A stretch of DNA of 64,000 nucleotides from Ferrimonas kyonanensis DSM 18153 (GTDB lineage: Bacteria; Pseudomonadota; Gammaproteobacteria; Enterobacterales; Shewanellaceae), in NCBI RefSeq assembly GCF_000425405.1, contig NZ_AUDJ01000002.1, positions 248,001-312,000 of the forward strand, in the 5' to 3' direction. A model generated the notes under the pieces. The model saw only the letters and a program-made list of their open reading frames with translations, was not told the origin of the DNA and searched no databases. This document shows positions 3,373 through 12,877 of this stretch, piece after piece (positions within the stretch are counted from its first letter, which is position 1; each line of letters begins with the position of its first letter). A program made the translations under genes and the position numbers.

Positions 3373-3762
3373 ACCTATCCAGAGGCGCCAGCTCATCGTC
3401 ATGATGATCTGGCGTCTGCTGGATTAAATCAATGCACCTTAATATTGATATAACCCTGTATTTCAAATCGGGAATAATTCCTGACTATTACGCTTCTTTA
3501 TATTTATCATTACGTTTTTTTATTACTCCCATCTTGAGCTTAACCTATTGATTAATAGGGCCTATATTCCTGTTCGTCATTTCATTTTTAGTTTTTCGTT
3601 TATATTATAAGGGTTATTTGCCGATTGAATATCTGGGTTGTGAGTCATATTTGAAAAATAGTTTGGGGGTTGTGTCACATAATTTTCAGAGTGGTGTTGT
3701 TGAGCGATAATTAAAATCTGTAACTTATAAAAACGAAATGTGGAATAAAGATTAACCATTTT
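3373..3762. other. AT-rich intergenic stretch before apbE
   Basis: A 390-bp gene-free region. It opens with an imperfect inverted repeat (about 3382-3396 against 3403-3417, arms aggcgccagctcatc and gatgatctggcgtct) that may end the upstream transcript. From about 3420 to 3760 the base composition drops sharply to AT-rich, unlike the genes on both sides. I see no convincing ORF in it; a 60-codon minus-strand frame is low-complexity. It probably holds the promoter region of apbE, but I cannot name a specific operator. Confidence 0.5.
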
Positions 3763-4788
3763 ATGGCTGCGATCCGTATTATTGCTCTGGTTTTGCTGAC
3801 CTTGTTTTCTATTTCTAATTCGGTGGCTTCAGAATCGAATCAAAACAAACTGCATCATATTTATGGCACCACCATGGGCAATAAATATCAGGTCAGTTGG
3901 CGCGCCCCGGTTGCCACTGCGGCTCAGGTATTCGCCTTGCGCCAGACCATTGAGCAACAACTGGATGCGGTCAACGCCAGCATGTCGGTGTGGCAGCCGC
4001 AATCGGAGCTGTCACGGTTTAATGCTCTGGCTGCTGGTAAGCCAATGACCCTGTCTCCTCAGCTTAACCAGGTGTTGACGCTGGCCCTGAAGATTGGCGA
4101 GCGCAGTGGCGGGGCACTGGACATTACCGTCGGTCCGTTGGTGAAGCTGTGGGGCTTTGGTCCCGGTAAACAGAGTCGTGCCGTTCCGAACGATGAAGCC
4201 ATCGCGTCGGTGCGCACCTACACCGGCCTGAACACGCTCCTTTTGGAATCCGGTCGCCTGACTAAGAGTGATGGTCGAACCGAGATCGACCTCGGGGCCA
4301 TTGCCAAAGGGTACGGTGTCGATGTCATCGCCGAGGTAATGCGGGCCAGCGGCCACCGGAACTTCCTGATCGACATCGGCGGTGAGCTGTACGCCAGCGG
4401 CCAGCGGCAACCGGGCACGCCGTGGAAGGTGGGCATCGATAAGCCGTTTATCTACAGCAGCGGTCAGGTGGAGACGTTACAGCTATCGAATCAGGCCGTG
4501 GCGACTTCGGGGGATTATCGCAATTTCTTTGAACAGGCCGGCAGCCGCTATTCCCATGTTGTCGACCCCAGAACCGGACGGGCGGTGCAGACCCAGGTGG
4601 TTTCGGCCACTGTGGTGGCCGACCGCTGCGCCGAAGCGGACGGGCTGGCGACGGCGGCGATGGTGATGGGGGTGGAGGCTGCCATGGCCATGGCCGAGCG
4701 CGACGGCATTGCCATGATGCTGATCGAAGATCACTTCGGCCGGGTCAGGTTGCACCACAGCACCGAATTTCAACAGTTTCTCCGGTAA
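3763..4788 (+). CDS. apbE: FAD:protein FMN transferase, ApbE family
   Basis: ApbE proteins transfer FMN from FAD to a Ser/Thr of target proteins outside the cytoplasmic membrane. The 341-residue protein has a Sec-type signal (hydrophobic residues about 5-22, cleavage near SVAS-ES) and no lipobox Cys. Family motifs are present: IDLGAIAKGYGVD, FLIDIGGELYASG, ATSGDYRNFF, SHVVDPRTGRAV and, near the end, EADGLATAAMVMG, which carries the Mg2+-binding Asp/Thr. The ribosome site before the ATG is weak. The next gene starts about 60 nt downstream on the same strand and encodes a diheme lipoprotein with a flavinylation-like motif, its most likely client. NqrB/NqrC- or RnfG-type clients elsewhere in the genome remain possible. 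Confidence 0.93.
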   Translation: MAAIRIIALVLLTLFSISNSVASESNQNKLHHIYGTTMGNKYQVSWRAPVATAAQVFALRQTIEQQLDAVNASMSVWQPQSELSRFNALAAGKPMTLSPQLNQVLTLALKIGERSGGALDITVGPLVKLWGFGPGKQSRAVPNDEAIASVRTYTGLNTLLLESGRLTKSDGRTEIDLGAIAKGYGVDVIAEVMRASGHRNFLIDIGGELYASGQRQPGTPWKVGIDKPFIYSSGQVETLQLSNQAVATSGDYRNFFEQAGSRYSHVVDPRTGRAVQTQVVSATVVADRCAEADGLATAAMVMGVEAAMAMAERDGIAMMLIEDHFGRVRLHHSTEFQQFLR

Positions 4789-4848
4789 TTCAGCCGGAGA
4801 CGATGATGAGCACAAGGGCTCAATTTCAATCCTTGTAGGGAAATGATG

Positions 4849-6045
4849 ATGAAGAAAAAACAACTGGCTCTCTCTTTAGTGTGCGCCTCAATGGTCATGT
4901 TGACCGGTTGCAACGACGATGAAACCGTGTATGAAACCAGCCCGGAGATGTGGGACAAGCTGGAGCAGCTTGAAACCGAAAACGAGGCGCTGGAGCAGCA
5001 AAATGAGCAGTTGGCGGAACAGAATACCGCCCTGGTGGCAGAGGTGAACTACTGGAAGCACAATGGCAGTACGGTGGCGCCTCATGACTTCACCAGCCAG
5101 TGCGCGGCCATCGGTATTGAGTTCGATTATGTCGACCCCAATACTCCGGAAGCCGCCCGGGTGATGGCCGTCTCAGCCGTCGCCGGTGGCGATGATTGCC
5201 TGTCTTGTCATACTTACGACGGCTCTGGCGATACCGGGGTGACACCGCCTCATGGGGACTACGGCGATTGCGCCGGCTGCCATGAAGGCCACGATGGCGG
5301 TACCGATCCTGGTGGTCCAAGCGGCGAGCCTACGGATCCCACCTACACACAGCCGAGTTTTGCCGCTGGCGCGGTGGATGGTAAGACCGGCGCATCGGGA
5401 GCGTCCTACTACGGCAGCGGTTCCTACCTGAATGCGCAATGGCTGCAGGCGCAACTGGATGCCCAGGTACACAACTACCGCTGGAGTGAAGCCGCCGATG
5501 GCGATACTGGCGTCAGCACGCTGGCCGCCGCCTGTGCCCTGGACAATCGTCAGCACATGACCCAGATGTTCCCTGAAGATGGCAAGGCCTATGTGATCGA
5601 ATCTAAAGAGAACGCCATCGGCGCCAAACTGGTGGCCACGGTTAACAAGTTTGATGATAACGGCACCCAGGTGGAAACACCGAACATTGCCACCTTCGGC
5701 TTTGGTCTGAAAGAGATTGAGGGCGAGTACTACACCAGCATGTTTATCGGTAAGAACAACACCTGCTATAACGCCATCATGAACGGTGAAGCGCGGTTGT
5801 CTTACTATGAGTACGACCCGACTCAATTTGCCAAGACCGGCCTGGAAGAGGAGAGTCGTAACCGTGGTGCCCGCATCATTGTCAGCACCGACTATACTCG
5901 TACCGGTTTGTTCGCGCCGGATTGGGCCACTCCGGTACCCGGTCTGGGCGCCGGTGAAACTTTCAAGCCTGAAGATGTGGACTGGAATGCTGTCGGCGCC
6001 TGTAATCTGACCTTTAAAGTGGAGAGCATTATTCCTTTGGGGTAA
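4849..6045 (+). CDS. Diheme c-type lipoprotein with coiled coil and candidate flavinylation motif
   Basis: Of three consecutive ATGs the third was chosen because AGGGA sits 7 nt before it, giving 398 residues. The N-terminus is a lipoprotein signal ending LTGC (Cys21). Residues about 33-68 form a heptad-rich, Glu/Gln/Leu coiled coil. Two covalent heme motifs follow, CLSCH (117-121) and CAGCH (141-145), then a Gly/Pro/Asp-rich linker. Within the linker DGKTGAS (177-183, followed by GAS) resembles the Dxx(S/T)GA(S/T) acceptor sequence used by ApbE. The C-terminal ~150 residues are a separate domain (PNIATFGFGLKEIEGEYY, GEARLSYYEYDP) with weak resemblance to split-barrel flavin-binding (PNPOx-like) proteins. 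Position right after apbE suggests a membrane-anchored periplasmic or surface electron carrier. Heme content is secure from motifs; flavin content is inference. Confidence 0.8.
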   Translation: MKKKQLALSLVCASMVMLTGCNDDETVYETSPEMWDKLEQLETENEALEQQNEQLAEQNTALVAEVNYWKHNGSTVAPHDFTSQCAAIGIEFDYVDPNTPEAARVMAVSAVAGGDDCLSCHTYDGSGDTGVTPPHGDYGDCAGCHEGHDGGTDPGGPSGEPTDPTYTQPSFAAGAVDGKTGASGASYYGSGSYLNAQWLQAQLDAQVHNYRWSEAADGDTGVSTLAAACALDNRQHMTQMFPEDGKAYVIESKENAIGAKLVATVNKFDDNGTQVETPNIATFGFGLKEIEGEYYTSMFIGKNNTCYNAIMNGEARLSYYEYDPTQFAKTGLEEESRNRGARIIVSTDYTRTGLFAPDWATPVPGLGAGETFKPEDVDWNAVGACNLTFKVESIIPLG

Positions 6046-6071: not shown

Positions 6072-6107
6072 CGGGGCCTGCAATGACGTTGCAGGCCCCG
6101 TTTTATT
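6072..6107 (+). terminator. Rho-independent terminator after the diheme lipoprotein gene
   Basis: A perfect 12-bp stem (cggggcctgcaa / ttgcaggccccg) with a 5-nt loop, followed by TTTTATTT. It closes the apbE-lipoprotein unit. Confidence 0.9.
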
Positions 6108-6347: not shown

Positions 6348-7310
6348 ATGCTGAAAGACATTAATCGTCTCGATTATTTCGCTCTTACCGTGCTGGTGGC
6401 ACTGTATGAGCAAAAAAGTGCCACCGTCGTGGCCGCCAGCCTCAATACCTCCCAGCCCAGGATCAGCCGTGCTCTGGTGATCCTTCGCGAGGTGTTTGAT
6501 GACCCGTTGTTCATACGGCAAAAATACGGATTGGAACCCAATGCCATGGCCGAAACCCTGTATCCCCTGGCCAAGGCGGTGCTGGAGAGGTACCAGGCCC
6601 TGGCCGATGCGGTCACCGATCATGGTGTGGGCAAGACAGAGCTGAACATTGCTGCTCAGGAGCACCTGTGTCCGTTGTTGATGGAGTGCCTGCACCTCGC
6701 CCGGAAAGAGGCCGGACTGGCATTGACCTTTAACTTGCACCCCTGGACGGCTGAGGTGCAAAAACAGATGAGTCAGTCGGTGTTGGATCTCAGTATCTCC
6801 ATTAATCCCTCGGCCTGTGATGGCATCGATAGCCACGAGATTGGTCAGATTAAGCGCTTCTACCTGGTGGCAAGCCGGGATCATCCGATCTTTGAGCAGC
6901 CGCTGACCCTGGATACGGTGTTTGCTTACCCGGTGGCGTTGTTCAACTACTCCATGAGTGGCCCTCGAACCCATCGGCTTGAGGCAGTAGCCCGGCAGTT
7001 GAAACTGCCGCTGCAGGTGTCACTGAAAACGGCCAGCCTGAATCTGTTGCTGGATCATGTGCAAAAGAGTAACAGCGTTGGTTTTCTGGCTTCGGCGCTG
7101 GTGTTGGAATCGATTAAGCAGCGGTCGGACCTGCACTACCTGGATATGACCGGCTTCTGGCAGCAGCGAGTGAAATTGGCGACAGACACTGGGTCAAAGC
7201 CCAGTTACGGGTTTTATCTGCAAAGCCACCAGCAGCTGGATCGAGTGTTCGTTGAGGCGTTAGTCGCCAACCTGCGCAAGCGCATCGCCGCCACCCAGTC
7301 ACAGGCCTGA
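6348..7310 (+). CDS. LysR-family transcriptional regulator
   Basis: The 320-residue protein opens with a LysR-type winged helix: RLDYFALTVLVALYEQKS, then SLNTSQPRISRALVILR as recognition helix and DDPLFIRQ as wing. A periplasmic-binding-like effector domain of normal length follows. The ligand cannot be deduced. It is not divergent from an obvious target: upstream is the terminator of the diheme lipoprotein gene, and downstream is an unknown protein on the same strand about 175 bp away. The ribosome site before the ATG is weak. Confidence 0.88.
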   Translation: MLKDINRLDYFALTVLVALYEQKSATVVAASLNTSQPRISRALVILREVFDDPLFIRQKYGLEPNAMAETLYPLAKAVLERYQALADAVTDHGVGKTELNIAAQEHLCPLLMECLHLARKEAGLALTFNLHPWTAEVQKQMSQSVLDLSISINPSACDGIDSHEIGQIKRFYLVASRDHPIFEQPLTLDTVFAYPVALFNYSMSGPRTHRLEAVARQLKLPLQVSLKTASLNLLLDHVQKSNSVGFLASALVLESIKQRSDLHYLDMTGFWQQRVKLATDTGSKPSYGFYLQSHQQLDRVFVEALVANLRKRIAATQSQA

Positions 7311-11197: not shown

Positions 11198-12865
11198 TTA
11201 GTCCAGGGCAGCCTGGGCACGGCCGCTGAGATCCGCCGCGTATTCCATTACGTGGAACAGGTAGTTTTGCTCGTTGGTGCCGGTGACCAGGTGGGCTCCG
11301 GGGCCAGACGCATACACGCCGACGTCTTCGGCGGCATGGGTTTCAGAGCTTCGCGGTACCAGCACCTCCTGGTGGTAACCGGCGGCGGTGGTATCGACCT
11401 CGGTCAGGTCGTGGCGGCCGGTGGCGATGGGCTGGTCATAACCGGCATCGGCGTCGGTTTCATTACCCAGATCCATAAAGCCTCGGCCATTGGTATAGCC
11501 CAGGGTGGTGTAGGGCTTGCCATCGGCGGCGGTGGCCTGTTTGCCGTCGACGCCCACCACTTTGCCCAGAATGGGGTTGCCGCGACGGGGGTAGCCGGCA
11601 ATGGTGAACACATGGCTGTGGTCGGCGGTGACCATCACCAGGGTGTCGTCGGACGAGGTCAGGGCCATCGCCTGCTCAACGGCTTTGGACAGTTCGATGG
11701 TATCGGTGAGGGCGCCGTAGGCGGAGCCGGCGTGGTGGCCGTGGTCGATGCGCCCCGCTTCGACCACCAATAGGTAGCCGTTGTCATTGTTGTCGAGAAT
11801 GTCGATGGCCTTGGCGGTCATCTGGCTCAGAGACGGCTCACCGGCCACGTCGTTGCCGCGATTGGCTTCGTATTGCATGTGCGATTCGTTGAACAGACCG
11901 AAAACCCGGCTGGTGGTGGCGGCATCGATGCCGTCAAATCCGTTCTGGTCGAACACATAGGTGCCGCTTGGGTATTTGGCCTGCCATTCGGCGGTCAGGT
12001 CGCGGCCGTCGGTGCGATCGCCCTCTTTGCTGCTGACGGCATCGGGGCTGTTGTAGGCGGCATCCTTTGGCAGGAAGTGGCGGCGGCCGCCGCCCATGAC
12101 CACGTCCAGACCATCGACATCCAGGCCGTCAATGCGGCTTTCCAGGTAGGTCTCAAAGTGGACCAGTTGATCGGCAATGTCTGCGGTGCCGGCGGCCACC
12201 GCCTCGTCGGGCAGGTCGGAGACGTCTTCCCAGTTACGATCTGCCGACTTGGCGTAGGTGGCGGCGGGGGTGGCGTGAGTAATTCGGGCGGTGGAGATCA
12301 CTCCGGTGGCCATGCCGGCGATCTCTGCCATCTCGATGGCTGTCATCAGTTCATTGCCCGCCACGGTGCGATAATCACCGCGAATCACGTCTTCATCGAC
12401 GCCAATGACGCCGACGTCGGTTTTGACGCCGCTGATGAGGGCGGTCATGGTGCCGGCGGAATCCGGCGTTTGGGCATCGACGTTGTAAGTCTTTACCAAT
12501 CCGGCGTAGGGGAAGGCATCAAAACTGAGGCTGTTTTCCTCACCGCTGCCGCCCTTGAGCTGGCCATCGAGGATTCGGGCGGCGGTTACGGTGGACACGC
12601 CCATGCCGTCGCCGACAAACAGAATCACGTTTTTGGCGCCGCCGCGTTTGGCGTTGTTTGGCCGGTCAATGGTGGATTGTAATGCCTGTTCGGCATCGGC
12701 GTACCAAGGGCTGTCGGTGTTGGTGGCGATGTCGGCCTTGGTGATTTCAACGGCGCCCGTCGGAGGGGTACCGCCGCCGGTCTGGCTGTTGTCATCGTCG
12801 TCGCTGCAGGCCGTCAGTGAGGAGGTGATGGCCAGGGCCAGCAGAGTCTTAGTCAGGGTTTTCAT
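11198..12865 (-). CDS. Alkaline phosphatase, lipoprotein form
   Basis: A PhoA-superfamily metallo-phosphomonoesterase of 555 residues. The ATG at 12865 is chosen because AAGGA lies 9 nt upstream; an ATG 9 nt earlier abuts that site. The signal ends SLTAC (Cys20), so the protein is lipid-anchored, followed by an acidic, Gly-rich spacer. Visible active-site elements are FVGDGMGVST (metal Asp), the nucleophile Ser in PDSAGTMTA, GRIDHGHHAGSAY and ADHSHVF, plus SSETHAAEDVGVYASGPGAH near the end. It is a close paralogue of the gene 12 nt upstream, sharing long near-identical stretches. It lacks two Cys residues that the paralogue carries. Confidence 0.93.
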   Translation of the reverse strand: MKTLTKTLLALAITSSLTACSDDDDNSQTGGGTPPTGAVEITKADIATNTDSPWYADAEQALQSTIDRPNNAKRGGAKNVILFVGDGMGVSTVTAARILDGQLKGGSGEENSLSFDAFPYAGLVKTYNVDAQTPDSAGTMTALISGVKTDVGVIGVDEDVIRGDYRTVAGNELMTAIEMAEIAGMATGVISTARITHATPAATYAKSADRNWEDVSDLPDEAVAAGTADIADQLVHFETYLESRIDGLDVDGLDVVMGGGRRHFLPKDAAYNSPDAVSSKEGDRTDGRDLTAEWQAKYPSGTYVFDQNGFDGIDAATTSRVFGLFNESHMQYEANRGNDVAGEPSLSQMTAKAIDILDNNDNGYLLVVEAGRIDHGHHAGSAYGALTDTIELSKAVEQAMALTSSDDTLVMVTADHSHVFTIAGYPRRGNPILGKVVGVDGKQATAADGKPYTTLGYTNGRGFMDLGNETDADAGYDQPIATGRHDLTEVDTTAAGYHQEVLVPRSSETHAAEDVGVYASGPGAHLVTGTNEQNYLFHVMEYAADLSGRAQAALD

Positions 12866-12877
12866 TGTCGGCATTCC

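Follow-up and report, generated by a model that had tools for sequence, protein, structure and literature searches.

A candidate ApbE-flavinylated diheme lipoprotein with a split-barrel-like domain, encoded beside apbE in Ferrimonas and related Shewanellaceae

A 64,000-nucleotide stretch of the Ferrimonas kyonanensis DSM 18153 genome (contig NZ_AUDJ01000002.1, positions 248,001 to 312,000; called the window here, with positions counted from its first letter) carries a gene pair that probably encodes a small flavocytochrome of the cell envelope together with the enzyme that would flavinylate it. The first gene, apbE (3763..4788, + strand), encodes a 341-residue FAD:protein FMN transferase (FAD, flavin adenine dinucleotide; FMN, flavin mononucleotide), and the second (4843..6045, + strand) encodes a 400-residue lipoprotein that is a candidate substrate, with a flavinylation motif, two heme sites, and a split-barrel-like domain. 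In the reading that we favor and consider probable, the two genes form an operon, FMN is attached to Ser185 of the lipoprotein, and the product is a lipid-anchored, diheme, split-barrel-like flavocytochrome that acts as an electron carrier or a small terminal reductase of the envelope. The observations behind this reading are the gene pairing, the conserved motif, the lipobox, the heme motifs, the match to split-barrel-like folds, and heme-free relatives that are linked to apbE and rnf genes. A preliminary description of the DNA had placed directly after apbE a lipoprotein with a lipid anchor, a coiled coil, two CxxCH sites, and the sequence DGKTGAS, all of which are present and were correctly located. 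Its interpretation of the pair as a flavo-cytochrome unit also stands, given the apbE pairing, the motif conservation, the two heme motifs, and the split-barrel-like domain.

The first product matches the Pfam family ApbE (PF02424) at E=8e-90 and contains the sequences TMG, AKGY, DIGGE, SGDY, HVVDPRTG, and EADGLAT, which we take to be elements of active ApbEs. Judged by eye, its N terminus is signal-peptide-like and has no evident lipobox. The lipoprotein open reading frame follows on the same strand after a gap of 54 bases. Its length had been given as 398 residues, which is right if translation starts at the third of its three Met codons; counted from the first, the protein has 400. An intrinsic terminator-like site with a 13-pair stem (9 G-C pairs) followed by TTTTATTT closes the unit at 6072..6100 on the + strand. 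Because this site is strong and the terminator scan found no + strand site between apbE and the lipoprotein gene, the sequence makes a two-gene operon likely.

Homologues of the lipoprotein are found in the genera Ferrimonas, Shewanella, and Paraferrimonas. Eleven were present in 10 of 97 near genomes, the F. kyonanensis genome included. An alignment scan of named genomes gave 10 loci, 6 of them already in the 97-genome set, and added three from Shewanella and one from the Bacilli; a single-sequence scan of the named genomes found nothing. The first 11 and the three added from Shewanella make up the 14 Shewanellaceae homologues on which the counts of apbE linkage and of the motif are based; the counts of heme-site invariance use the 11. 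At all 14 loci apbE lies directly upstream of the lipoprotein gene, every one verified by an ApbE profile match, which bears out the idea that the two genes co-occur. In wider searches, 5 of 394 genomes sampled from the order contained relatives aligned along the full length, and 2 of 398 genomes sampled from the phylum contained relatives. In another 20 genomes of the order, the match was confined to the N-terminal 86 residues, which hold the signal peptide and the coiled coil, and these were set aside. A plasmid search gave no match, and none of 54 candidate stretches in viral contigs was confirmed. Ferrimonas marina (G006) has two apbE–lipoprotein pairs on separate contigs (L013 and L017), one with DGKTGAS and the other with DAISGAS. 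In one Shewanella genome (L094, G036), the pair adjoins and converges with what by eye is an apparently complete nqr operon, with no apbE directly after nqrF.

The lipoprotein begins with a lipobox, LTGC (residues 20–23; 4900..4911, + strand), in which Cys23 would carry the lipid anchor. A lipobox-like pattern is present in all 14 homologues, and by this pattern match export from the cytosol is indicated for each of them. A coiled-coil stalk is predicted at residues 34–74 (4942..5064, + strand), where the AlphaFold model has a single 41-residue helix and Pfam gives weak coiled-coil matches. Elsewhere in the window, an alkaline phosphatase lipoprotein (11198-12874, − strand) has a Cys-Ser-Asp-Asp anchor sequence identical to that of 5 of the 14 homologues.

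The putative ApbE acceptor motif, DGKTGAS (residues 179–185; 5377..5397, + strand), is an exact match to D-x-x-[ST]-G-A-[ST] and puts the predicted FMN-bearing Ser185 at 5395-5397. Random shuffling of the 400 residues produces the pattern in 547 of 100,000 trials, so that the motif alone has a P of ~0.005, and it is conservation across homologues that lifts it above chance. Residues 179–186 have a mean top-residue fraction of 0.90 and tie with residues 339–346 as the best of 370 eight-residue windows; the value is 0.54 for the linker before the motif (151–178) and 0.73 for residues 187–196 after it. D-x-x-[ST]-G-A-S is kept in 13 of the 14 Shewanellaceae homologues, in the forms DGKTGAS, DGFTGAS, DAETGAS, and DAISGAS. 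By this alignment, the motif is under strong constraint in the Shewanellaceae.

The heme module lies between the stalk and the acceptor motif. Heme site 1, CLSCH, occupies residues 119–123 (5197..5211, + strand), and heme site 2, CAGCH, residues 143–147 (5269..5283, + strand); C119, C122, and H123 of the first and C143, C146, and H147 of the second are invariant in 11 of 11 homologues, and the 3 further homologues each have two CxxCH motifs. His137 (5251..5253, + strand), a candidate distal heme ligand, is also invariant in 11 of 11, and His150 is nearly so. An invariant CxxCH pair with these two histidines is the pattern expected of a bis-histidine heme pair, and we infer that heme would be inserted at both sites. 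Among the families listed, Pfam Cytochrome_C7 matches 10 of the 11 members at E up to 1; its cut-off of 24.8 bits was not reached in the 11 members scanned, the best score being 20.8 bits (L017). Four cysteines (residues 87, 231, 308, and 387) are invariant in the same 11 homologues and may form disulfides. The diheme region as a whole is an insert, placed after a conserved N-terminal element and ahead of the flavin motif, and is found only in the Shewanellaceae form of the protein.

Downstream of the motif, residues ~208–400 (5464..6042, + strand) form a split-barrel-like domain. Two AlphaFold models were used, one of the full-length protein and one of a core (residues 164–400) built on 25 sequences. 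Mean predicted local distance difference test (pLDDT) values were 66 for the full-length model and 84.9 for the core, with the barrel mostly >90. Foldseek matched both models to 3f7e (probability 1.00), LnzB, PaiB, SMOB, and NimA, and the core also to Anf3 and YviC, with many split barrels in the top 30. We take most of these matches to be split barrels, among them 3f7e (MSMEG_3380), 4f07 (the flavin reductase SMOB), and 6rk0 (the flavocytochrome Anf3). At the level of sequence, the Pfam PNPOx_N profile was found in 3 of the 25 core sequences (L060, L061, and L084), all from distant relatives in the Bacilli, at 12.5-15.6 bits with a best E of 0.022, two of them spanning nearly the whole profile; none of the 25 sequences scanned reached its cut-off of 28.1 bits. 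The faint resemblance to split-barrel flavoproteins suggested earlier finds support in these results, at modest fold scores and sub-cut-off profile scores. FMN_bind (PF04205) was absent from the window protein (E up to 1), the 10 other full-length homologues (E up to 0.05), and the 25 core sequences (E up to 10). Membership in Flavodoxin_4, FMN_red, DUF2271, and DUF3570 was considered and rejected, with no Pfam match in the same three sets. In NCBIfam, two flavodoxin-type models each matched 1 of 25 members, at E of 0.058 and 0.17. When searched against the sequences of solved structures, the core profile gave 0 matches and the full-length profile 87, and among the 60 of these listed none reached beyond residue 171, so none touches the barrel.

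The models lean toward a divergent split barrel behind a flexible acceptor site. In the core model, the segment carrying the motif (164–186) has pLDDT <50 and lies outside the barrel, and the site is probably a flexible, exposed stretch ahead of it. This arrangement leaves room for a different mechanism, in which the lipoprotein is flavinylated but FMN does not bind in the barrel. The flavin would instead be a free relay arm on its tether, and the barrel would bind another ligand or mediate only dimerization or docking. The position of the motif in a low-confidence segment speaks for such an arm, and the fold matches include proteins titled heme-binding (PaiB) or acting on F420 or deazaflavin (3f7e and Ddn). 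However, split barrels commonly bind FMN or FAD. Two other classes of ApbE substrate also bear the motif on folds that bind flavin noncovalently, as set out in the available part of PMC11334425. We regard the free arm as possible but doubtful.

Relatives without the heme insert occur in the Bacilli. The protein at locus L027, from an uncultured Bacilli bacterium, is a heme-free lipoprotein of 277 residues that keeps an FDYVDPN-like element, the motif (as DVISGAS), and the barrel. Heme-free relatives were found in 7 of 392 genomes of the Bacilli phylum, and a search of 245 genomes of the order brought the number to 11, those 7 included. All 11 of these small genomes have apbE. Among 30 genomes of the phylum in which no homologue was detected, apbE is present in 8, or in 9 if a single match below the cut-off is counted. 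Comparing the first 7 genomes with these 30 gives a hypergeometric probability of 6e-4, a figure that ignores shared ancestry and takes as its comparison the first 30 genomes of a list, not a random draw. In 4 of the 11 genomes (G604, G638, G656, and G675), the relative and the apbE match share a contig and strand, 2 to 3.2 kb apart, in an rnf-type cluster; in a fifth (G940), they are 1.1 kb apart on opposite strands, and in the remaining six they are on separate contigs. The cluster at L071 encodes RnfC-type and RnfD proteins, a large protein in the RnfG position, two Rnf-Nqr membrane subunits, an FeS/RnfB-type protein, and ApbE, and then NusG_II, Hpre_diP_synt_I, DegV, and the heme-free relative. 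It was profiled gene by gene; at L095 the half from apbE to DegV and the large protein were profiled, at L072 RnfD alone, and the remainder of the rnf-type clusters was assigned by eye. The NusG_II and Hpre_diP_synt_I genes of these clusters (L070-L073) recall the Listeria locus for flavin-based extracellular electron transfer. The large protein in the RnfG position (L071:10949-14419 and L095:5144-8167) has an open frame of >1000 codons; Pfam gives it a Cache-type match and none to FMN_bind, which sets it apart from an ordinary RnfG.

Five apbE genes are present in the F. kyonanensis genome. The other four adjoin genes for an NqrF-type protein (with Fer2, FAD_binding_6, and NAD_binding_1 domains), an FMN_bind and FAD_binding_2 reductase-like protein, an FMN_bind protein, and DUF3570. 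The available parts of PMC8238504 and PMC11334425 count FMN_bind and DUF3570 among ApbE substrates and NqrB/RnfD as a flavinylated domain. Because each of the other four adjoins a recognized substrate or complex, the lipoprotein is the obvious substrate of the fifth. The apbE beside the FMN_bind and FAD_binding_2 reductase-like protein, which has the sequence DGISGAT, lies at L091 (C5:121000-136000 of the same genome), together with an MtrC/OmcA-like lipoprotein with ten CxxCH motifs and two LysR genes that are distantly related (30% and 26%) to the LysR gene beside the window pair. Each of 17 related genomes carries two to five apbE genes. Across the 14 pairs, pairwise distances between the ApbE proteins track those between the lipoproteins (r=0.77, with 0 of 5000 permutations as high), a relation that may be due largely to species history.

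An alternative is that this apbE serves NQR, RNF, or some other flavoprotein, that the lipoprotein is merely a linked cytochrome, and that its motif is incidental. Such a view could draw on the two Shewanella loci where, by eye, the pair adjoins nqrF (L011 and L012), on the rnf-type clusters that hold the Bacilli relatives, where one RnfG-position protein has DVDTGAS, and on the occurrence of degenerate motifs. However, the genes beyond the pair are by eye otherwise variable among loci, all nine pair-bearing genomes among the 17 have at least one further apbE, and the motif ties for the most conserved stretch of the lipoprotein. We therefore consider an incidental motif very unlikely.

The gene after the terminator-like site encodes a LysR-type regulator (6348..7310, + strand; assigned by Pfam), a neighbor that lies outside the core unit. 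The same LysR type is found directly 3' of the pair in 6 of the 14 loci, where the LysR of the window is 41-58% identical to the other five. This linkage may mean that the unit is induced for a particular acceptor and is not a general wire. In its strongest form the idea makes the unit a LysR-induced terminal reductase dedicated to a specific soluble periplasmic acceptor, which would be a narrower version of the favored reading and compatible with it. The 30%-identical LysR gene elsewhere in the genome fits such a role, since it stands beside the FMN_bind/FAD_binding_2 reductase, its apbE, and the ten-CxxCH cytochrome. At the other 8 of the 14 loci, however, a LysR gene of that type is not directly after the pair, and a dedicated reductase appears somewhat unlikely. 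Upstream of apbE, the sequence TGTCACA at 3673-3679, a possible regulator site noted without statistics, recurs in the aligned upstream stretches of L008 and L018 and is missing from those of L009 and L019. CRP-type sites were rejected as a signal, with 12 matches in the window vs 28 expected, and the search for RNA families gave 0 in the window.

In the proposed mechanism, ApbE would join FMN to Ser185 of the lipoprotein through a phosphoester bond, in the probably flexible segment just before the barrel. The tethered FMN would probably occupy, or lie close to, a flavin site in the barrel, which we further infer to be dimeric. Raised on its coiled coil, the lipid-anchored protein would place the flavin next to a pair of c-type hemes with probable bis-histidine ligation. 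The heme pair would then exchange electrons with the flavin and with periplasmic or outer-membrane cytochromes, and the flavin site would act as acceptor or donor. A part in metal or surface extracellular electron transfer is one possibility, and the role of a carrier or reductase in the periplasm accords with the data just as well.

Several findings weigh against the flavocytochrome reading. The Foldseek scores are modest, with best E values of 6e-4 and 1.4e-3 (1 and 0 matches at E <0.001 for the two models), target-normalized TM-scores of ~0.2-0.54, and root-mean-square deviations of >=7; phage neck proteins are interspersed among the matches, one of them at rank 2. No flavin-family profile scored above its curated cut-off in the window protein, its homologues, or the 25 core sequences. 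The linked ApbEs do not stand out as a single clade (3 changes, a number as low in 141 of 500 shuffles), and of 13 comparisons with the window pair, 11 show lower conservation for ApbE than for the lipoprotein, 1 equal conservation, and 1 higher. An apbE-linked homologue without the motif, named in the preliminary description as evidence that would count against flavinylation, occurs once, and then only in part: the Paraferrimonas protein (L016), the sole exception among the 14, has the degenerate GDITFASG, which retains Thr, Ala, Ser, and the next Gly. In the available part of the review PMC12052999, replacement of the motif Asp had only minor effects and a Gly-to-Ala change roughly halved flavinylation, whereas the available part of PMC10722498 calls the Asp essential. 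These accounts differ on what GDITFASG would imply. Finally, of the 10 Bacilli proteins whose sequence spans the site, 8 have a noncanonical motif: 4 differ at position 4 alone, 2 have GGS, and 2 lack GAS. The other 2 are canonical (DVISGAS and DCQTGAS), and the Asp is kept in all 10. Since it is mostly degenerate there, the motif is not essential to the family in the Bacilli.

A wider proposal, which we hold tentatively and lean slightly against, is that split-barrel flavoproteins are a further independent route to ApbE-dependent covalent flavin. The heme-free lipoprotein would serve RNF-linked electron export in small-genome Bacilli. In the Shewanellaceae, the same protein would have acquired the diheme insert and with it a connection to cytochromes of the periplasm or outer membrane, making one polypeptide a flavin and heme envelope wire. 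Covalent flavin and c-type heme are the two main extracytosolic electron carriers, and Shewanella is a standard subject of work on metal and extracellular respiration. If true, a split-barrel-like diheme substrate would be a new fold for ApbE substrates and would combine covalent flavin and c-type heme in one small lipoprotein. By the available part of PMC8238504, extracytosolic ApbE occurs in about half of bacteria, and 4% of apbE-bearing genomes have no predicted substrate.

The claim that no protein of this architecture had been described agrees with the families and literature searched. A literature search on ApbE with a split-barrel or diheme substrate, or on covalent FMN with a split barrel, found none. 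PMC12052999, PMC10722498, and the main text of PMC11334425 use none of the words split, barrel, and pyridoxamine, and split-barrel, pyridoxamine, and PNPOx have zero mentions in the available text of PMC8238504.

Among known systems, the closest in setting are the flavinylated lipoproteins of the FMN_bind type, such as PplA and Cad. They share with the window protein the lipid anchor, the ApbE motif, the apbE linkage, and a place in envelope electron transfer, but the window protein has no FMN_bind match, matches another fold, and has heme sites. The Cad lipoprotein and an nqr-linked apbE are the subject of PMC7074142, as far as its available part goes. Flavodoxin_4 and FMN_red, two of six ApbE substrate classes, are noncovalent flavoprotein folds with an added motif, and no hemes are described for them in the available part of PMC11334425. 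The lipoprotein would be a further case of this kind, although it matches neither profile. The DUF2271 and DUF3570 substrates (PMC8238504, available part) are likewise non-FMN_bind proteins recognized by apbE linkage and motif; the lipoprotein differs in having no Pfam match to them, and DUF3570 sits at another apbE of the genome. The heme module resembles those of the cytochrome c7/c3 type in its tight CxxCH pair, conserved extra His, and sub-cut-off Cytochrome_C7 matches, but it has only two hemes, as an insert that the Bacilli relatives lack. The split-barrel flavoproteins (3f7e, 4f07, and 6rk0) are the main fold matches of the C-terminal domain, from which the lipoprotein differs in being exported and lipid anchored and in having an ApbE motif and c-type heme sites. 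Within the families and literature searched, this combination looks undescribed, and it is best placed as a variant of the ApbE-flavinylated electron-transfer proteins.

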